This document shows, piece by piece, positions 34,242 through 42,316 of a stretch of 64,000 nucleotides of DNA. Origin of the DNA: Labrenzia sp. OB1 (GTDB lineage Bacteria; Pseudomonadota; Alphaproteobacteria; Rhizobiales; Stappiaceae). Below the pieces are notes generated by a model. It was not told the origin of the DNA and ran no database searches. It was given only the letters and a program-made list of their open reading frames with translations. The position numbers and the translations under genes were made by a program. Location of the stretch: the NCBI RefSeq assembly GCF_001624695.1, contig NZ_JSEP01000003.1:124001-188000 (forward strand), written 5' to 3'. How positions within the stretch are numbered: position 1 is the first letter of the stretch; every line of letters starts with the position of its first letter.

Positions 34242-34973
34242 TCAGCCAGTCTTGGGCTTGCGGCGCTGGGCCGCCAGTTCCCGTGTATAGGCGGACAGCG
34301 CGTCGAGGCTTGCGGACGCATTTGCGCTGTCTTTCGCCTCCAGGGCCGATGACAGCGCGTCGTGAAAGTCGGCGATCCGCTCCCGGTCACGAAGACGATA
34401 GACCAGCATGTTCATCAGGGGCTGCATGGCTTCAAAGGCGGCGGAAAGCTGAAACGCCAGCAGCGGATTGGCTGTCGCACCGGCGATCACGGAATGAAAG
34501 GTGACATCCGAGGCGCAAAACGCCTCGTCACTTGTCAACGGATCGCGCTGGCGGTGGATCTCCTGCCTGAGTTCGCCAAGTTGGGCCTCTGTGCGATGCG
34601 TTGCGGCCAGCGGCAGGGCGGCGGCCTCAAGCGCGAATCGCGCCTCGATCGCATCCTCCAGCGGAATATCGTTCATGCCGATGAGAAGCCGGGTGGTGGT
34701 GACCAGATTGTCCGTCGCCTCGGACCAGGTAATGCGGTTGACGAAGGCGCCCCCCGCCGAGCCGCGTTCGCTGCGGATCAGGTTCTGCGCCGCGAGCCGC
34801 TTGAGCGCTTCTCGGACCGTCGATCTGGAAACGCCAAAACGTTCCGCCAGTTCCGCCTCACTCGGCAAGCGTTCCTCGCCTGTGAGCCGTCCGTCCAGGA
34901 TGGCATCGCGGATGGCGTTGGCGATCTGAACCGACAGACCTTCTTTCTGTATCGTGTTGAATTCGATCGCCAC
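34242..34973 (-). CDS. GntR family regulator with FCD domain, DMSP locus
   Basis: 243 residues from the GTG at 34973 (GGAG 6 bases upstream). N-terminal winged helix (GVSRSTVREALKRLAAQNLIRSERG, residues about 45-70) and C-terminal all-helical FCD ligand-binding domain (FHSVIAGATANPLLAFQL, then conserved His residues). It is divergent from the DUF2182-DUF1326-dmdA-dmdB-acuI operon. A perfect FadR-type palindrome sits in the shared promoter (35111-35131), so it is very likely the regulator of this operon; a DMSP breakdown product such as an acyl-CoA could be the signal. Confidence 0.9.
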   Translation of the reverse strand: MAIEFNTIQKEGLSVQIANAIRDAILDGRLTGEERLPSEAELAERFGVSRSTVREALKRLAAQNLIRSERGSAGGAFVNRITWSEATDNLVTTTRLLIGMNDIPLEDAIEARFALEAAALPLAATHRTEAQLGELRQEIHRQRDPLTSDEAFCASDVTFHSVIAGATANPLLAFQLSAAFEAMQPLMNMLVYRLRDRERIADFHDALSSALEAKDSANASASLDALSAYTRELAAQRRKPKTG

Positions 34974-35274
34974 ATTTCACTCCAGTTTCCGCCCGGCCAG
35001 CCGTCGTTCAGCCTGCTGTCGTCCAGCCCGTTGCCGCACAGTTCTTCCGGCGGACGGTCCGTGAACTCCACAAAATTAGCTATCGGCCGTAAAAGGGTCA
35101 ATCGGAAAGGTTTAATTGTCCGACAATTAAATGTTTGACTTTTAACATTGGCAGGAACAACTTTACGGGCAAGAAGCCGAGCCCCTGAACGCGCAAAGCC
35201 GCAGGAAAAATCGGCAGATACCGGCCGTCATATCCGCACGTGCGCGAATGAAAGGCGGATCCGGGGAGGACGAG
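34974..35274. promoter_or_regulatory. Divergent promoter region of the DMSP operon
   Basis: About 300 bases between the GntR gene and the DUF2182 gene. The only strong feature is the palindromic operator at 35111-35131. The stretch around 35075-35160 is AT-rich, so both promoters probably overlap the operator. No small gene is supported. Confidence 0.55.
35111..35131. promoter_or_regulatory. FadR/GntR-type operator, perfect palindrome
   Basis: Arms TTTAATTGTC (35111-35120) and GACAATTAAA (35122-35131) are exact reverse complements around a single central base. The core TTGTCCGACAA fits the TNGTNNNACNA pattern bound by FCD-type GntR regulators. It lies 138 bases before the divergent GntR gene start and 144 bases before DUF2182. 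Confidence 0.8.
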
Positions 35275-36063
35275 ATGAGGACACTTGCACGGTTGCTGCC
35301 GGGTCATGGCATTCTGGCGCTGCTGTTTTTTGCTGCCATTCTGATGGCCTGGAGCATCCTTTTCGCCATGCAGGCCTTTCCCGGAGGAGCCCCTCTCGCG
35401 GGACAGTCCGGCATCGGCGCCCTTCTGTGGCTGTGCTCGAACACCGTTGCCGTGACCGGCTATGGCACCAGCTTCCTCATGTGGGTCCTGATGACACTGG
35501 CGATGATGGCGCCCACGGCCTTCCCTGCTTTCCGCACCTATGCGGACCTGACACATACGGCGGCCGCGAACAGCCTCTCCCTTGCCGTTCTGATCGCGGG
35601 ATATCTTTCCGTCTGGTTGGGATTTTCCGTTGCCGCGGCGTTTGTTCAGGTCAGACTTGCCTCCCTTGGCCTGATCGATCCTCTTGGCCGGTCGACCTCT
35701 CATGTCCTCAGCGGCGCGCTGCTTGTCACCGCCGGGCTCTACCAGTTCAGCGCCCTGAAGGCCGCCTGCCTGAAAGCCTGCCAGAGCCCCATGGCTTTCT
35801 TCCTCACCCACTGGCGGCCAGGCAGCCGTGGCGCACTCAGGCTCGGCCTGCGGCTCGGCGCCGTATGTCTCGGTTGTTGCTGGGCCCTGATGTTGCTGGC
35901 TTTCGTCGCCGGCACCATGAATCTGGCGATCATGGCACTCGCCATGGTGCTGATGACCCTTGAAAAACTGCCGGAGATCGGAGCGAAAATAAACGCACCG
36001 CTCGGCGTCTTCCTCATCCTTGCAGGCACAACCGTGATTGTCCTGCCTTTCCTGCCAAACTGA
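35275..36063 (+). CDS. DUF2182 membrane protein
   Basis: 262 residues from the ATG at 35275, preceded by GGGGAGGACGAG. About six to seven membrane segments, with the family phrases WVLMTLAMMAPTAFPAF, LYQFSALKAACLKACQSP and LGCCWALMLL. The conserved Cys residues in KAACLKAC and GCCW suggest metal or redox chemistry in the membrane; DUF2182 proteins are called predicted metal-binding membrane proteins. It is the first gene of the DMSP operon and is followed 16 bases later by DUF1326, a known frequent partner. Function unknown. Confidence 0.85.
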   Translation: MRTLARLLPGHGILALLFFAAILMAWSILFAMQAFPGGAPLAGQSGIGALLWLCSNTVAVTGYGTSFLMWVLMTLAMMAPTAFPAFRTYADLTHTAAANSLSLAVLIAGYLSVWLGFSVAAAFVQVRLASLGLIDPLGRSTSHVLSGALLVTAGLYQFSALKAACLKACQSPMAFFLTHWRPGSRGALRLGLRLGAVCLGCCWALMLLAFVAGTMNLAIMALAMVLMTLEKLPEIGAKINAPLGVFLILAGTTVIVLPFLPN

Positions 36064-36079
36064 CGCTAAGGAGATTCAC

Positions 36080-36706
36080 ATGTCCGGCTGGGCCATTCGC
36101 GGCGAATTGATCCTCAACTGCAACTGCACGGTTTTCTGTCCCTGTGTGGTCTCCCTCGGCCAGCATCCGCCCACGGAGGGCTATTGCCAGGCCTGGGCGG
36201 GAATTCGCATCGACGAGGGCCACTACGAGGACACGGATCTTTCCGGGCTCAACGTCGGCCTGGTTCTGGAGATTCCCGGCCTGATGGCACGCGGCAACTG
36301 GAAGGCCGCCGCCTATATCGACGACCGGGCCAGCGACGCGGCTTATGACAGTCTGATCAAGATCTTCTCCGGCCAGGCCAAGGGCACGACCGGCCTTTTC
36401 CGGGTTCTGATCAGCGAGTTCCTGGGAGCGGAACGGGCGCCGGTCTCCTACACCAACGAAGGCAAGAAACGCCGCCTGATCGTCGGCAAGGCCATCAAGG
36501 GCGAGGTGGAACCCGTGAAGGGCGGAAATCCCGACGAGGACATCGTCGTCACCAACACCGCCTACTGGATGGGACCGGACATAACCGTCGCCACGGCCAC
36601 ACAAGGCAGGGTGCGCGCCTACGGCCGCGTATGGGATTTCGACGGACGCAGTGCCGAGATCTGTCAGATCGACTGGTCCGGCCCACCGGCTGAAGCCGCC
36701 GCCTAG
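36080..36706 (+). CDS. DUF1326 protein
   Basis: 208 residues from the ATG at 36080, preceded by AAGGAG. No signal peptide. The N-terminus carries a cysteine-rich cluster (NCNCTVFCPC then EGYC, residues about 13-40) that looks suited to bind a metal. The rest has GSLKAAAYIDDRAS-type phrases (NWKAAAYIDDRASDAAYDSL) and a conserved end. DUF1326 is typically adjacent to DUF2182, and the two may form a membrane-associated unit. In this operon it lies directly before dmdA. No function is assigned. Confidence 0.85.
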   Translation: MSGWAIRGELILNCNCTVFCPCVVSLGQHPPTEGYCQAWAGIRIDEGHYEDTDLSGLNVGLVLEIPGLMARGNWKAAAYIDDRASDAAYDSLIKIFSGQAKGTTGLFRVLISEFLGAERAPVSYTNEGKKRRLIVGKAIKGEVEPVKGGNPDEDIVVTNTAYWMGPDITVATATQGRVRAYGRVWDFDGRSAEICQIDWSGPPAEAAA

Positions 36707-36718
36707 GGAGGGCAAGCC

Positions 36719-37840
36719 ATGCAGGTCCCCGCCATTTCCATCTCGCGCCGCACGCGCAAGACCCCGTTTTCCAGACGTGTCCAGGCCGCGGGCGTCAAAG
36801 GCTACACGGTCTACAATCACATGCTTCTGCCCACTGTCTTCGACAGCGTCGAGGCGGACTACCGGCATCTGAAAACCAGTGTGCAGGTCTGGGACGTCTC
36901 CTGCGAGAGGCAGGTGGAACTCTGGGGACCGGACGCTGCCCGTCTGGCCCAGATGCTGACGCCGCGCGACCTGTCCGGAATGACCGAGGGCCGATGCTAC
37001 TACACCCCCATGGTCGACGAGACCGGCGGCATGCTGAATGACCCGGTCACGACAAAAATCGCCGACGACAAATTCTGGGTCTCCGTGGCCGACAGCGACC
37101 TGCTGTTCTGGATCAAGGGCCTTGCCCATGCCTTCCGGCTCGAGGTCGATATCGACGAGCCGGACGTTTCGCCTCTAGCGATCCAGGGACCCAAGGCGGA
37201 AGACCTTGTCGCCCGGGTGTTCGGCGAACGAATCCGCACGATCCGCTTCTTTCACTACGACTACGTTGAATTCCAGGGACAGAAACTGATCCTCGCCCGC
37301 TCTGGCTATTCCAAGCAGGACGGCTTCGAACTATATGTCGAAGGCGCACAACTGGGTGAACCGGTCTGGGACGCCCTCATGTCCGCGGGGGAGGATCTGA
37401 ATGTTCGCGCCGGATGCCCGAACCTGATCGAGCGCATCGAAGGACAACTGCTGTCTTACGGCAATGACATGACCCGCAACAACACGCCGCACGAATGCGG
37501 CCTCGGCAGGTTTTGTCAGACCAGGGAAGCCATCGGCTGCGTCGGCCGGGACGCTCTTCTCAGAGTCGCAGTCGAAGGCCCCGTGCGCCAGATCCGGAGC
37601 GTCGCCATCGACGGTGACCCGGTGCCGCCCTGCGACGAGCTGTGGCCGGTCATCGCGGGGGGACGGCAAGTCGGCACCGTGAGTTCCGCTGCCTTCTCGC
37701 CGGATTACCGCACCAATGTCGCCATCGGCATGGTACGCATGACCCATTGGGACAACGGCACCAGGGTTCAGGTCGACACGCCGCACGGGATCCGCTCGGC
37801 AACTGTCTGGGAAAAGCCATTCACAGATCAGGAGGCGTGA
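36719..37840 (+). CDS. dmdA: DMSP demethylase (aminomethyltransferase fold)
   Basis: 373 residues, 12 bases after DUF1326. The protein follows the DmdA pattern of the glycine-cleavage T-protein family: AGVKGYTVYNHMLLPTVFDSVEADYRHLKT at the N-terminus, QVWDVSCERQVEL, DETGGMLNDPV, SPLAIQGPK, ARSGYSKQDGFELYV, and GCPNLIERIEGQLLSYGNDM. DmdA transfers a methyl group from dimethylsulfoniopropionate to tetrahydrofolate, giving methylmercaptopropionate. The neighbouring dmdB-like ligase and acuI support the DMSP role. Other T-protein-like methyltransferases are an alternative but the N-terminal phrases favour DmdA. Confidence 0.85.
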   Translation: MQVPAISISRRTRKTPFSRRVQAAGVKGYTVYNHMLLPTVFDSVEADYRHLKTSVQVWDVSCERQVELWGPDAARLAQMLTPRDLSGMTEGRCYYTPMVDETGGMLNDPVTTKIADDKFWVSVADSDLLFWIKGLAHAFRLEVDIDEPDVSPLAIQGPKAEDLVARVFGERIRTIRFFHYDYVEFQGQKLILARSGYSKQDGFELYVEGAQLGEPVWDALMSAGEDLNVRAGCPNLIERIEGQLLSYGNDMTRNNTPHECGLGRFCQTREAIGCVGRDALLRVAVEGPVRQIRSVAIDGDPVPPCDELWPVIAGGRQVGTVSSAAFSPDYRTNVAIGMVRMTHWDNGTRVQVDTPHGIRSATVWEKPFTDQEA

Positions 37841-37842
37841 TC

Positions 37843-39495
37843 ATGAAGGAATTCTACGACGCTTTCTCTCCGCACCCGGCAAACCATGTTCCACTCTCGC
37901 CGCTGTCGTTTCTCGAACGCACGGCCGATGTTTTTCCGCACCGGACCGCACTGATCTACAATGACCGCCGGTATTCCTGGTCGCAGGTTAGGGAGCGGGT
38001 CGCGAGAGTGGCGTCCAGCCTTGTGGAACTGGGCATTGGCCCCGGTGACACGGTCTCGGTCCTGGCGGCCAACACACCGGAGCTCTTCGAACTGCACTAC
38101 GCCGTGCCCCTGACCGGCGCCGTCCTGAACACCATCAACACCCGGCTGGAACCGGAAACCGTCGCCTATATTCTCGATCACGGGGACGCCAGGCTTGTTG
38201 TTGCCGACACGGCTTTTGCTGACACCCTCACAAGCGCCTTTGCCCTCAACGGCAAGGCCTTGCCCGTGATCAGCATTGCCGATCCCGACGGGCCTGGCGG
38301 TGAGATGATCGGATCGCACACCTACGACGGGCTTGTTGAGGCAGGAGACCCGGACTTCGCCTGGCACGGCCCCCGGGATGAATGGGCGGCGCTGGCGCTG
38401 AACTATACTTCCGGAACCTCCGGCCGGCCGAAAGGTGTGGTGTATCACCACCGGGGCGCCTACCTGATGAGCATGGCAACTCCGATAGCCTGGGACCTGC
38501 CACGTCACCCCGTTTACCTTTATTCGGTGCCGATGTTTCACTGCAACGGCTGGTGTCACGCTTGGACCATGACGCTGGTTGCCGGAACGATTGTCTGCAT
38601 TCGCCAGATAACCGGCGAAGCCGTCTTCCGGCTGATTGCCGACCATGGCGTAACTCATCTTGGTGGCGCTCCGATCGTGCTTTCCATGCTGATCAACACA
38701 CCCAGGGAGAAACAAACGGCGGTCACTCCGCCGGTCCGGATCCTGACGGCCGGCGCACCGCCGCCCGCCGCCGTGCTGGCAGGTGTCAGAAAGCTCGGCT
38801 TCGAAGTCATGCAGGTTTATGGCCTGACCGAAACTTTCGGCCATGTCGCCCAGTGTCTCTGGCGGGAGGAATGGGATGAGCTTTCGGAAGAGGAACAGGC
38901 CGAGTGCCAGGCCTGGCAGGGGGTCGGGTTCCCCATGACGGAGACGATCGATGTAGTCGACCGGACCAGCGGCAACCCGGTTCCCAGGGACGGCAGCACA
39001 CAGGGCGAAATCGTCATTCGCGGCAACACGGTCATGAAGGGTTACTACAAGAACCCGGAAGCGACCGAGGAAGCCTTTTCCGGCGGCTTTTTCAACTCCG
39101 GCGATGCCGCGGTCCGTCATCCGAACGGCTACATCCAGATCCGGGACCGGCTGAAGGACGTGATCATATCCGGCGGTGAAAACATATCGTCCGTCGAGGT
39201 TGAAGGCATGCTCTACAGGCACCCCGACGTCGCGCTAGCCGCGGTGGTTGCCTTGCCGGACGAAAAATGGGGTGAAGTCCCCTGCGCCTTCGTTGAACTG
39301 AAAGAGGGCGCCGCCGCAACCGAGGACAGCCTCATTGCGTTCTGCAAGGAACACATGGCCGGATTCAAGCGGCCGAAGAAGATCGTCTTCACGGAGTTGC
39401 CGAAAACCTCGACCGGCAAGATCCAGAAATATGTTCTGCGCCAGCAGGCCAGAGCCATTCCGAGCAAAACCAACCAGCAGGACCCAGTCGAATGA
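37843..39495 (+). CDS. dmdB: Methylmercaptopropionyl-CoA ligase-like acyl-CoA synthetase
   Basis: 550 residues from the ATG at 37843, 2 bases after dmdA and preceded by GGAGG. ANL-superfamily adenylation motifs are present: NYTSGTSGRPKGVVYHHRG, QVYGLTETFGH, NSGDAAVRHPNGYIQIRDRLKD and the C-terminal Lys in PKTSTGKIQKY. The family includes DmdB, which forms 3-(methylthio)propionyl-CoA from the DmdA product. General medium-chain acyl-CoA ligases look alike, so the assignment relies on the operon. The stop codon overlaps the acuI start (ATGA). Confidence 0.8.
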   Translation: MKEFYDAFSPHPANHVPLSPLSFLERTADVFPHRTALIYNDRRYSWSQVRERVARVASSLVELGIGPGDTVSVLAANTPELFELHYAVPLTGAVLNTINTRLEPETVAYILDHGDARLVVADTAFADTLTSAFALNGKALPVISIADPDGPGGEMIGSHTYDGLVEAGDPDFAWHGPRDEWAALALNYTSGTSGRPKGVVYHHRGAYLMSMATPIAWDLPRHPVYLYSVPMFHCNGWCHAWTMTLVAGTIVCIRQITGEAVFRLIADHGVTHLGGAPIVLSMLINTPREKQTAVTPPVRILTAGAPPPAAVLAGVRKLGFEVMQVYGLTETFGHVAQCLWREEWDELSEEEQAECQAWQGVGFPMTETIDVVDRTSGNPVPRDGSTQGEIVIRGNTVMKGYYKNPEATEEAFSGGFFNSGDAAVRHPNGYIQIRDRLKDVIISGGENISSVEVEGMLYRHPDVALAAVVALPDEKWGEVPCAFVELKEGAAATEDSLIAFCKEHMAGFKRPKKIVFTELPKTSTGKIQKYVLRQQARAIPSKTNQQDPVE

Positions 39496-40484
39496 CCTTC
39501 AAAGCGCTTATAGTCGACAAGGACGAAGACGGTAACACCAGCGCCTCGATTCAGCAGATCGAAGAAACACGTCTGCCGGAAGGCGACGTGACCGTTGCTG
39601 TCGAATACTCGACGCTGAACTACAAGGACGGCCTGTGTCTCGGTCCGGGTGGTGGTCTCGTCAGAAACTATCCGCACGTGCCGGGCATCGACTTTGCCGG
39701 CACGGTCGAGGAGTCCTCGGACGACTGGTACCAGCCCGGCGACAAGGTGGTCCTCACCGGCTGGCGGGTCGGCGAGGCCTGGTGGGGCGGCTACGCCCAG
39801 AAAGCCCGCGTCAAGGGCGAGTGGCTCGTTCCCCTGCCCCAGGGACTGACCACACGGGACGCGATGGCCGTAGGGACGGCGGGTTTTACCGCGATGCTAG
39901 CCATCATGGCGCTTGAGGACCATGGCCTGAAGCCGGAAAACGGCCCGGTTCTGGTCACCGGCGCGGCGGGTGGTGTCGGCTCGGTCGCCACCGCGATCCT
40001 CTCCAATCTCGGCTATGAGGTCGCTGCCGTGACCGGGCGCGAAAGCACCTGGGAGTACCTGAAAGCCCTCGGCGCCAGCCGGATCGTGCCGCGCGGCGAG
40101 GTCAGCGAAACAGTAAAGCGGCCCCTGGAAAGCGAAACCTGGGCCGGCTGCATCGACGCGGTCGGCGGATCCATGCTGGCGCGCATTCTCGGCCAGATGA
40201 AATACGGCGCCTCGGTCGCTGCGGTTGGCCTGGCCGGCGGCGCGGCTCTGCCGGCAACCGTCGTCCCCTTCCTGCTGCGTGGGGTCAACCTGCTCGGCAT
40301 CGACAGCGTCATGAAACCCTATGACGCCCGCCTGAAGGCCTGGGAACGGCTGGCGAAAGACCTGCCGATGGACAAGCTCGAAACCGTCATCCAGGCCGCA
40401 ACGCTGGAAGACCTGCCGCAGCTTGGCGCCGATATCCTGAAAGGACAGGTGAAAGGCCGCGTCGTCGTCGATTTGAACGCCTAA
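39492..40484 (+). CDS. acuI: Acrylyl-CoA reductase AcuI
   Basis: 330 residues, starting inside the stop of dmdB. Medium-chain reductase with the YhdH/AcuI subtype phrases STLNYKDGL, YPHVPGIDFAGTV, GWRVGEAWWGGYAQ and the NADPH-binding GAAGGVGSVATAIL. AcuI reduces acrylyl-CoA, a toxic product of DMSP cleavage or demethylation routes, to propionyl-CoA. It is often cotranscribed with dmdA in marine alphaproteobacteria. It closes the operon; the convergent LysR gene ends 15 bases away. Confidence 0.93.
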   Translation: MTFKALIVDKDEDGNTSASIQQIEETRLPEGDVTVAVEYSTLNYKDGLCLGPGGGLVRNYPHVPGIDFAGTVEESSDDWYQPGDKVVLTGWRVGEAWWGGYAQKARVKGEWLVPLPQGLTTRDAMAVGTAGFTAMLAIMALEDHGLKPENGPVLVTGAAGGVGSVATAILSNLGYEVAAVTGRESTWEYLKALGASRIVPRGEVSETVKRPLESETWAGCIDAVGGSMLARILGQMKYGASVAAVGLAGGAALPATVVPFLLRGVNLLGIDSVMKPYDARLKAWERLAKDLPMDKLETVIQAATLEDLPQLGADILKGQVKGRVVVDLNA

Positions 40485-40498
40485 CGGATCGGGGTGGG

Positions 40499-41404
40499 TT
40501 ACATAGTCGCCCGCCCCAGCTCCGCCTTCAGAAAATCGATCATGACCCGTACCTTGCGCGGCAGGTAGATCCGGCTCGGATAAAGAATCCAGGCGCCGGT
40601 ATCGAAGTCGCCAGCTGCGCAGTCATGCTCCGGAAAAAGATCGACGAGAACACCGTCGGCCAGATCCTTGCCGATCAACCAGTCCGCCAACAGGGCCGGC
40701 CCCATCCCCAGCCTGGCCGCCTCCCGCAGCGCGAGTGCATTGGAAATCACCGTCCGGCCGGAGACTTCAACCGCGAAAGGTGTTTCGCCCGGCCTGCGGA
40801 ACCGCCAGACACACTTGAACTCCGGCAGGTCGAAACGCAGACAACCGCGCCCAGTGAGATCTTCCGGGCGGGACGGCGCTCCGAAGGTGTCCAGATATCC
40901 CGGTGCGGCAACGACCCGGTACCGGGTTCGCAGAAGCCGCGTGGAGATCATGTCACCCTTCGGAGCCGCGGCGAGACGTACCGCCAGATCCAGCCCCTCA
41001 GCCAGAAGGTCGAGATTGCTATCGGAGGGAAACAGCTCGACCGAGATCTCCGGATAGCGCTCCAGAAAGCCGGGCAGAAGCGGCATCAGGGCTTCCAGGG
41101 TGAAGGCAACAGACGCTGTCAGGCGCAAGGTTCCGCGCACAAGAGTTCCCTGTTCGGAGATCTCCTCACGTGCCGCCTCCATCTCCTCCAGCAGCGGTGC
41201 GATGCGGCGCAGATAACGGTCTCCCTCGTCGGTAAGGGCAAGCTTGCGGGTGCTGCGCTGGAACAGCCTTGCGCCGAGCTTCCGCTCGACGGCAGCCACG
41301 GTCCGGGAAACATTCGAAGCGTCGACATCAAGCGCGCGCGCCGCACCGGCGATACTGCCGAGGTCCCGCACGAGCAGGAGCATTTTGAGTCCTTGCGTAT
41401 CCAT
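40499..41404 (-). CDS. LysR family transcriptional regulator
   Basis: 301 residues. N-terminal helix-turn-helix (MDTQGLKMLLLVRDLGSIAGAARALDVDASNVSRTVAAVE), then a LysR effector domain (LRLTASVAFTLEALMPLLPGF, GMGPALLADWL). It is convergent with acuI and has no divergent partner other than the ribosomal protein operon about 330 bases away, so its target is unclear. A distinct regulator from the GntR protein of the DMSP operon. Confidence 0.92.
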   Translation of the reverse strand: MDTQGLKMLLLVRDLGSIAGAARALDVDASNVSRTVAAVERKLGARLFQRSTRKLALTDEGDRYLRRIAPLLEEMEAAREEISEQGTLVRGTLRLTASVAFTLEALMPLLPGFLERYPEISVELFPSDSNLDLLAEGLDLAVRLAAAPKGDMISTRLLRTRYRVVAAPGYLDTFGAPSRPEDLTGRGCLRFDLPEFKCVWRFRRPGETPFAVEVSGRTVISNALALREAARLGMGPALLADWLIGKDLADGVLVDLFPEHDCAAGDFDTGAWILYPSRIYLPRKVRVMIDFLKAELGRATM

Positions 41405-41548: not shown

Positions 41549-41577
41549 TTGCATTCGGCGGGAAGCTCCCATATAAG
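41549..41577 (+). promoter_or_regulatory. Promoter of rpmI-rplT
   Basis: -35 TTGCAT (41549-41554) and -10 TATAAG (41572-41577) with an ideal 17-base spacer, 157 bases before the rpmI ATG. The leader contains a perfect hairpin CCTGCATC-CC-GATGCAGG (41618-41635) that could take part in autoregulation by L20 or L35, though no known leader family was recognised. Confidence 0.65.
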
Positions 41578-41734
41578 CGCCCGGTCCAGAGTCGTCCGGC
41601 TCGTCGTGGGCCGGTTTCCTGCATCCCGATGCAGGCCGTTTCCCGCGACAAACCAAGGGCATGCCGTGTCGGCTCTGAATGCACCAACAAAGAGTGGCCG
41701 TTCTAACGCGGTCGCACAAACGAAAGGATGCAAA

Positions 41735-41932
41735 ATGCCCAAGCTGAAGACCAAGTCAGGCGCAAAGAAGCGCTTCAAGTTGACTGCGACCGGTAAAGTG
41801 AAATCCGGCCAGGCAGGCAAGCGTCATGGCATGATCAAGCGCACGACCAAGTTCATCCGCAACGCCCGTGGCACAACCACGTTGAGCGACCAGGATGCAA
41901 AGATCGTGAAGCAGTTCCTGCCCTACGCATAA
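41735..41932 (+). CDS. rpmI: 50S ribosomal protein L35
   Basis: 65 residues, the usual length. Very basic, with the family start [20 protein letters not shown] and [17 protein letters not shown] in the middle. GAAAGGA precedes the ATG. It is followed 24 bases later by rplT on the same transcript. infC, which often precedes this pair in bacteria, is not present here, as is common in Rhizobiales. Confidence 0.97.
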
Positions 41933-41956
41933 CGCCAGCCCCAAGGAGATTACCAG

Positions 41957-42316
41957 ATGTCACGCGTCAAACGGGGCGTAACCGCCCACGCTCGCCACAA
42001 GAAAGTTCTGAAGGCTGCAAAAGGCTATTATGGCCGCCGCAAGAACACCATCCGCATTGCCAAGCAGGCCGTCGAGAAGGCAGGACAATACGCCTACCGC
42101 GACCGCAAGGCCAAGAAGCGCACGTTCCGTTCGCTCTGGATCCAGCGCATCAACGCGGCAACCCGCCAGCACGGCATGACCTACGGCCGCTTCATCAACG
42201 GCCTGAGCAAGGCCGGTATCGAAGTCGACCGCAAGGTTCTGTCCGACCTCGCCATCAATCAGCCGGACGCCTTCAAGGTTCTGGTCGATCAGGCAGAAAG
42301 CGCCCTTGCCGCCTGA
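41957..42316 (+). CDS. rplT: 50S ribosomal protein L20
   Basis: 119 residues with the family phrases [50 protein letters not shown] and [17 protein letters not shown]. It binds 23S rRNA early in 50S assembly and represses its own operon in many bacteria. AAGGAG precedes the ATG. A strong terminator follows at 42354. Confidence 0.98.

Follow-up and report, generated by a model that had tools for sequence, protein, structure and literature searches.

DMSP is a major sulphur compound of the ocean, and its breakdown by marine alphaproteobacteria sets how that sulphur is split between methanethiol and dimethyl sulphide. The closest described operons are those of Ruegeria pomeroyi and Rhodobacter sphaeroides. 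With the Roseobacter dmdA–acuI operon of R. pomeroyi the locus presented here shares an acuI that follows dmdA immediately or after one intervening gene and an acrylate-linked logic, but that operon, compared with ours by its description only, comes without mention of an upstream DUF2182–DUF1326 pair in the available text of PMC3338564, whose main text uses the words 'hypothetical' and 'unknown function' 0 times; in our locus the operon begins with the pair, and a palindrome on its GntR side is conserved. With acuR–acuI–dddL of R. sphaeroides, as far as the available text of PMC3017554 describes it, our locus has in common a regulated acuI operon for DMSP breakdown, but its regulator belongs to the GntR family and the two DMSP-lyase-family genes of its own genome both lie on other contigs. 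For the pair itself the nearest parallel is PpoB1–PpoB2 of Marinomonas mediterranea, in which PpoB2 takes part in copper transfer to an adjacently encoded tyrosinase (PMC2855505, available text). The likeness lies in a DUF2182/COG5486 protein encoded beside its client; the neighbour there is a tyrosinase, whereas here it is DUF1326, a presumed client, and the metal is likewise presumed. Among the matches listed by full-text searches of openly licensed papers we found no report of DUF2182–DUF1326 in DMSP operons, nor is there one in the available text of PMC4334477 and PMC5395565.

Judged from sequence, this pair of neglected proteins is a recurrent part of DMSP-breakdown operons in many marine bacteria. 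We place about even confidence in a reading of the pair as an accessory metalloprotein module of DMSP and acryloyl-CoA catabolism, in which DUF2182 would supply a metal, probably copper, to DUF1326. A recurrent and apparently co-regulated metalloprotein pair would suggest that the pathway has a metal-dependent step, or a need for metal, that has so far gone unrecognised, and would give the DUF1326 and DUF2182 families, found far beyond the DMSP pathway, a testable metabolic context.

The Labrenzia locus and its DMSP genes

The DNA examined is a 64,000-nucleotide window of contig NZ_JSEP01000003.1 from Labrenzia sp. OB1 (GCF_001624695.1), and all positions follow the numbering of this window. 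Gene architectures were taken from tblastn and HMM searches because our in-house gene finder missed genes. The original prediction of an operon of five tightly packed rightward genes was confirmed, with DUF2182 (35275–36063; an alternative upstream ATG is possible at 35248), DUF1326 (36080–36706), DmdA (36719–37840), an AMP-binding acyl-CoA ligase (37837–39495) and AcuI (39492–40484) following in order on the forward strand, separated by gaps of 16 and 12 bases and then joined by two 4-base overlaps. A GntR-family (FCD) gene, likely the operon regulator from its PF00392 and PF07729 domains and its position, runs divergently on the reverse strand (34242–34973), and the unit should be drawn with this gene and the intervening operator added to the five genes. 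A promoter scan of 34900–40700 gave no sigma-70-like site (0 versus 1.0 in shuffles).

The third gene product is, by sequence comparison, DMSP demethylase. It scores 634 bits against the curated equivalog NF009133 (cut-off 410) and 362 bits against 3tfh compared with 126 bits against the best T-protein. Placement outside the DmdA clade had been named in advance as a result that would speak against the prediction; in our tree the protein sits among Roseobacter DmdA sequences within a group of 48 rows (support 99*), and paralogues scoring 270–300 bits are placed elsewhere. This was a quick, midpoint-rooted tree of 77 rows with long branches flagged, whose rows came without biochemically tested DmdA, 3tfh having been compared by sequence only. 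AcuI, the acryloyl-CoA reductase, belongs to the TIGR02823 subfamily (457.5 bits, cut-off 297) and falls just short of the curated NF051456 model (439.8 bits, cut-off 440). The description of the ligase as DmdB-like holds at superfamily level only: assignment as DmdB by the curated model was ruled out (NF005426, 315 bits against a cut-off of 822), and the best match is the PRK08162 acyl-CoA synthetase subfamily (NF006020, 836 bits, cut-off 677), making the protein a candidate 3-methylmercaptopropionate or acrylate ligase. The locus itself has no dmdC or dmdD; a DmdC-like gene is present elsewhere in the genome.

Recurrence of the pair beside acuI and dmdA

The pair recurs as one unit together with acuI, in many cases also with dmdA and in some with the ligase; at most loci a divergent GntR gene and the conserved palindrome lie alongside. 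In the family, apparently Stappiaceae, DUF1326 lies directly upstream of dmdA in all 22 genomes whose DmdA exceeds the curated cut-off, and because this arrangement recurs in these genomes and in other lineages it goes beyond chance; random occurrence, which would have counted against the original prediction, is not what we see. Beyond the family the pairing with dmdA was uncommon: an even draw of the class contained 32 further genomes in which DmdA exceeded the cut-off, and in only 5 of them did DUF1326 lie immediately upstream or separated from dmdA by a single DinB gene. The remaining 27 have no DUF1326 beside dmdA, and 8 genomes of the genus carry a DMSP-lyase-family gene but no pair; in general, therefore, neither demethylation nor cleavage requires the pair.

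Within the loci that do carry the pair, acuI is the steadier partner. DUF2182 stands upstream of DUF1326 in 80/80 of the nearest named relatives, and among the 68 of these loci with more than 4.5 kb downstream, acuI follows in 65, dmdA in 48 (one of them a remnant) and neither in 0. Thus dmdA is gone at 20/68 loci, or 21/68 if a 129-base remnant is counted as gone, and it is missing from 13/36 pair-bearing family genomes, all 36 of which have acuI (no more than 4 kb away in 34 of them; the other 2 are fragmented assemblies with acuI on a separate contig). Membership of the pair in a DMSP-linked operon is thereby upheld, but its assignment to demethylation was too narrow, and a pair serving demethylation only was ruled out on the strength of the acuI association.

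The same counts favour a role confined to acrylate or acryloyl-CoA (sensing, uptake or detoxification), with the dmdA link secondary. Remnants also speak for it, a 129-base piece of dmdA in L234 and a 234-base piece of the ligase in L132, since they suggest that both genes once stood between the pair and acuI and were later lost. We nevertheless regard this role as decidedly unlikely, since at 3/68 named loci the pair is followed by dmdA and not by acuI, in four f40 genomes the ligase alone follows it, and in 11 of the 12 pair-less genus genomes whose acuI surroundings were inspected acuI occurs with pair, GntR relative and operator core all missing nearby.

The DMSP-linked DUF1326 proteins form one supported clade (100/100) of 51 rows, of which 45 are linked to acuI or dmdA, 4 to the ligase and 2 to neither, and DUF2182 lies upstream in 49/49 linked rows, whereas the order is reversed, with DUF2182 downstream, in almost every other pair. 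As the linked rows fall in a single clade, the linkage may have arisen once, and an unrelated metal pair could have been fixed in the operon by descent. Such hitch-hiking appears very unlikely to us: the pair is kept with its gene order across several families, as is the operator core where GntR was found, while dmdA, the ligase and DinB vary, and in 11 of the 12 pair-less genomes inspected acuI stands without pair, GntR relative and operator core alike.

Away from these operons, a distant DUF2182–DUF1326 pair adjoins a heavy-metal P-type ATPase, which fits the accessory metalloprotein reading. Pfam searches with 28 genes lying next to lone DUF2182 genes or to pairs outside the operon revealed no common partner; a single heavy-metal ATPase was among them and, in two f40 genomes, there were two-component genes.

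Putative metal handling by DUF2182 and DUF1326

The suggestion that the pair is metal-dependent agrees with the membership of DUF2182 in PF09948 (217 bits, cut-off 28.7), a family named for the PpoB2 copper chaperone, and with its invariant Cys and Met residues. Across 53 sequences M73, M77, M78, C169, C198 and M206 are invariant and C165, C201 and C202 nearly so, giving a CxxxC motif (C165, C169; 35767–35781) and a CxxCCxxxM motif (C198, C201, C202, M206; 35866–35892). The DUF2182 model had no structural match at E ≤0.001 in Foldseek and its sequence had none in the PDB. From these residues and family ties, DUF2182 is likely a copper-handling membrane protein.

DUF1326 scores 183 bits against PF07040 (cut-off 25) and carries the N-terminal Cys cluster originally described, C14, C16, C20 and C22 (36119–36145), followed by C36 (36185–36187; Met1 at 36080). 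Among 62 sequences C14, C16, C20 and C36 are invariant and C22 nearly invariant. The protein appears to be cytosolic, having no signal peptide by eye. Its confidently predicted structure (pLDDT 95) has acetoacetate decarboxylase-like proteins as best structural matches, 3bgt first (E 2.6e-5, TM 0.45/0.40) and also MppR (4jmd), kin of this group; at this level the beta fold is weakly predicted to be acetoacetate-decarboxylase-like. Acetoacetate decarboxylase uses a catalytic Schiff-base lysine. DUF1326, with its TM of only 0.45, has an invariant Cys cluster instead and no Lys in the invariant or nearly invariant columns of the 62 sequences; a search of PDB sequences gave a single match, at E 0.49. 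Six residues, H29, W39, Y162, W163, R183 and E193, are each present in 26/26 rows of the DMSP-linked clade and 0/36 others, and these clade-specific invariants suggest a small-molecule ligand.

By analogy with PpoB2 and tyrosinase, DUF2182 would move copper or hand it to the neighbouring DUF1326; its Met and Cys residues are of the kind that Cu(I) would favour, and another metal is possible. DUF1326, Cys-rich and with a putative clade-specific pocket in its acetoacetate-decarboxylase-like fold, would use the supplied metal and may act on, or guard against, a reactive pathway product such as acrylate or acryloyl-CoA, methylmercaptopropionyl-CoA or methanethiol. In a bolder form, the DMSP-linked DUF1326 proteins would be a new acetoacetate-decarboxylase-like metalloenzyme of DMSP catabolism, using copper or another metal to convert acryloyl-CoA, methanethiol or a product of methylmercaptopropionate. 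DUF2182 would then be a membrane metallochaperone dedicated to this enzyme, and both would be under a GntR regulator whose operator marks the pathway in marine alphaproteobacteria. We advance this form tentatively and with considerable doubt.

Methanethiol is a strong Cu(I) ligand, and the pair might instead maintain copper supply or tolerance under methanethiol exposure and have no catalytic role. Along with the PpoB2 family membership of DUF2182, this possibility draws on gene content in the genus: dmdA (23/32 pair-bearing versus 0/13 pair-less genomes, one counted from fragments) and mtoX (20/32 versus 0/13) are confined to pair-bearing genomes, and the DMSP-lyase family is not (25/32 versus 8/13). 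We consider it unlikely, as 4/36 pair-bearing family genomes (G032, G052, G068 and G071) have neither dmdA nor mtoX, the rpoB tree yields too few independent contrasts, and the clade-specific residues of DUF1326 point to a small-molecule ligand. A separate reading, in which the pair would supply copper for the maturation of MtoX, a copper-dependent methanethiol oxidase, is in line with a near-clade pair in 24/28 family genomes that match mtoX strongly (at least 570 bits) against 12/59 others, a 154-bit SBP56 match in G048 being weak and not scored as mtoX. We give it very little probability, and the pair was ruled out as the MtoX copper inserter, since mtoX is missing from the Labrenzia sp. 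OB1 genome and 11 other pair-bearing family genomes; by coordinates it never adjoins the pair in the family, and published mtoX operons, in the available text of PMC5739008, bring their own SCO1/SenC chaperone.

The divergent GntR gene and its palindrome

Under the accessory metalloprotein reading, the GntR protein would bind the conserved palindrome between the divergent genes and a DMSP-pathway metabolite would relieve binding. The putative operator is a perfect 21-bp palindrome (35111–35131) with the core TGTCNGACA, which is exact in 80/82 GntR/DUF2182 spacers and has one mismatch in the remaining 2, against 0.4/82 in base shuffles; the 82 spacers cover loci with a detected GntR only, and some represent one genome fetched twice. 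This conserved palindrome offers a direct handle for finding the controlling metabolite.

A divergent GntR relative accompanies 62/80 named loci. Of the 18/80 without a match, 15 have more than 1.8 kb upstream of DUF1326, and GntR is therefore absent there or too diverged. These 15 loci run against the accessory metalloprotein reading, as does G031, which retains GntR, palindrome and acuI and is missing the pair. Across the genus, palindrome sites occur in at least 39/45 genomes, with a reversed control pattern also matching in some. In the Labrenzia sp. OB1 genome the search matched nothing beyond this operon except a single site on a different contig, which adjoins a gene that, by eye, resembles another GntR.

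A recurrent module linked to DMSP and acryloyl-CoA genes

The DUF2182–DUF1326 pair is a recurrent module linked to DMSP and acryloyl-CoA genes and accompanied by a conserved palindrome. In the window, which comes from a 6.0 Mb genome, five plus-strand genes are arranged as originally described: DUF2182 (35275-36063), DUF1326 (36080-36706) 16 bases after it, the DMSP demethylase gene dmdA (36719-37840) a further 12 bases on, a ligase gene (37837-39495) overlapping dmdA by 4 bases, and the acryloyl-CoA reductase gene acuI (39492-40484), which overlaps the ligase by 4 bases. A divergent GntR (FCD) gene at 34242-34973 is part of the unit. Directly past the LysR gene downstream of the operon, rpmI and rplT were recognized by eye at 41549-42316.

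One contig scan returned at least 568 relatives, and the best 80, which are the nearest to the window and no random sample, were analysed. These named loci come mainly from Stappiaceae and Rhodobacterales, with others from a Kiloniellaceae bacterium, Denitrobaculum, and MAGs labelled Hyphomicrobiales, Sphingomonadales and Gammaproteobacteria; DUF2182 lies upstream of DUF1326 in all 80. Among the 68 with more than 4.5 kb downstream, acuI is present in 65 and dmdA in 48 (one, L234, just a 129-base remnant), acuI occurs without dmdA in 20 and dmdA without acuI in 3, and no locus lacks both.

The predicted tie between the pair and the DMSP operon is borne out within the family, apparently Stappiaceae: DUF1326 lies directly 5' of DmdA, by coordinates, in all 22 of the 87 genomes with DmdA above cut-off, and in G066 fragments of both genes keep this order at contig ends. 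DUF1326 itself is present in 40 of the 87. Thirteen further genomes carry acuI and a DUF1326 of the DMSP-linked clade without dmdA; the order GntR, DUF2182, DUF1326, acuI was read directly in 12, and the thirteenth (G076) was assigned by coordinates; locus L227 has these four genes too. Four of the 40 (G002, G004, G005, G006) have distant DUF1326 genes only. Where the near-clade pair is present, acuI lies within 4 kb of it in 34 of 36 genomes; G061 and G066 carry it on a different contig, and the G066 copy has a stop within its reading frame. Locus L132, from one of the thirteen genomes without dmdA, retains a 234-base piece of the ligase between DUF1326 and acuI, and dmdA and the ligase were therefore probably deleted.

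In an even draw across the class (n=385, up to 8 DmdA candidates scored per genome), DmdA exceeded the cut-off in 33 genomes including that of the window. Of the other 32, two (G421, G279) have DUF1326 directly upstream of DmdA, and in 3 (G108, G240, G338) a single DinB gene separates them, so the pair is accessory to DMSP operons and not a universal part of them. Downstream of DUF1326, 19 of the 80 named loci carry a DinB-family gene; in some Rhodobacterales operons (L126:4752-5291; also L185, L189, L208) it comes directly after DUF1326 or overlaps its end. The DinB family includes thiol transferases.

Pathway genes and their association with the pair

With 634 bits, the window's dmdA clears the 410-bit cut-off of the curated model for DMSP demethylase. 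It scored 362 bits against PDB 3tfh, the SAR11 DmdA, with the best T-protein at 126 bits, and grouped with Roseobacter DmdA in a quick tree (77 rows). The ligase, originally called dmdB-like, failed the curated DmdB model (315 bits, cut-off 822) and passed that of the PRK08162 subfamily (836 bits, cut-off 677). It lies downstream of the pair at 22 of the 80 named loci, all of them with dmdA, and so probably takes part in the pathway. AcuI fell 0.2 bits under its equivalog cut-off and passed the subfamily model. Another contig of the genome encodes a DmdC-like acyl-CoA dehydrogenase, which scored 744 bits to the DmdC entry 6ijc, but 694 bits to a different acyl-CoA dehydrogenase as well. The genome has two DMSP-lyase-family genes, and no mtoX was found in it.

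Within the window's genus (45 genomes, 32 with the pair and 13 without), dmdA occurs in 23/32 genomes with the pair (G066 counted from fragments) versus 0/13 without, and mtoX in 20/32 versus 0/13, counting SBP56 matches of at least 570 bits and leaving out weaker ones in 7 family genomes. The DMSP-lyase family shows no clear association (25/32 versus 8/13, p 0.28). Independent contrasts on an rpoB tree (58 rows) were too few for the median p to reach 0.05 in any test, and the contingency values thus overstate the evidence. At L159 (G006) and L058/L124 (G005), a DmdA-like paralogue below the DmdA cut-off (387 and 370 bits) is transcribed divergently from a gene of the SBP56, or methanethiol oxidase, family.

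A conserved palindrome in the GntR/DUF2182 spacer

A perfect 21-base palindrome lies at 35111-35131 between the GntR and DUF2182 genes. The core of this putative operator, TGTCNGACA, occurs unchanged in 80 of 82 such spacers, all from loci with a detected GntR and some from one genome fetched twice; the remaining two have one mismatch, and base shuffles gave 0.4 of 82. A divergent GntR relative was detected at 62 of the 80 named loci and not at 18; as 15 of these have more than 1.8 kb upstream, the gene there is absent or too diverged. Among the matches listed, a 13-base form occurs somewhere in 39 of the 45 genus genomes. The window's genome has just two such sites, one at the operon and one on another contig (L348/L350, contig C5 near 80479); this second copy of the palindrome adjoins what looks by eye like a gene for another GntR-type regulator. 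Neither a GntR relative nor the core was found near acuI in 11 of 12 pair-less genus genomes read; one of these 11 (G039) keeps ligase and acuI. G031 retains GntR, palindrome and acuI with the pair missing, and the G037 acuI surroundings hold a 60-residue GntR match at 37%.

DUF1326 conservation and a possible metal role

A 94-row DUF1326 tree, with long branches flagged elsewhere, places 45 acuI/dmdA-linked, 4 ligase-linked and 2 unlinked rows in one clade with 100/100 support; because the latter two kinds fall inside this clade, the acuI/dmdA label needs two changes, not one. DUF2182 precedes DUF1326 in the 49 linked rows and follows it in nearly all other pairs, the exceptions being L285, one member of the L282 tandem, and L272 with DUF2182 on the opposite strand. 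Overall, DUF2182 lies within 1.2 kb of 139 of the 154 DUF1326 genes examined (some genomes counted twice). C14, C16, C20 and C36 do not vary in either the 26 clade rows or the 36 others, whereas H29, W39, Y162, W163, R183 and E193 are invariant in the former and absent from the latter, a pattern of residues that suggests a shared metal site plus a clade-specific ligand pocket.

The DUF1326 model (mean pLDDT 95) gave 10 Foldseek matches at E ≤0.001, all acetoacetate decarboxylases and MppR, the best being weak (3bgt, E 2.6e-5, TM 0.45). A decarboxylase of the acetoacetate type is ruled out, as the DUF1326 alignment has no invariant lysine. The DUF2182 model (pLDDT 90) had no match at E ≤0.001.

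DUF2182 belongs to the PpoB2 family, and PpoB2 is described as involved in copper transfer to the neighbouring tyrosinase (PMC2855505). By analogy the metal of the pair is probably copper, DUF2182 would be the chaperone and DUF1326 its client. The pair may act on a reactive product of the pathway. Against this reading stand the weak fold match and the dispensability of the pair in many DMSP users.

In another family (f40; L259, L264, L266, L269) the same ligase, at 60-62% identity, comes after the pair, with no dmdA or acuI nearby. Upstream, Pfam identifies a response regulator and histidine kinase in L259 and a response regulator in L266, and L269 has genes of similar size. A distant DUF1326–DUF2182 pair at L147 (G046) adjoins a heavy-metal P-type ATPase with HMA domains. 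The window's genome has one DUF1326 match versus two more DUF2182 genes (L151, contig C79; L152, contig C68), one neighbouring TerC and an FAD-binding protein, the other DUF899 and a short-chain dehydrogenase.
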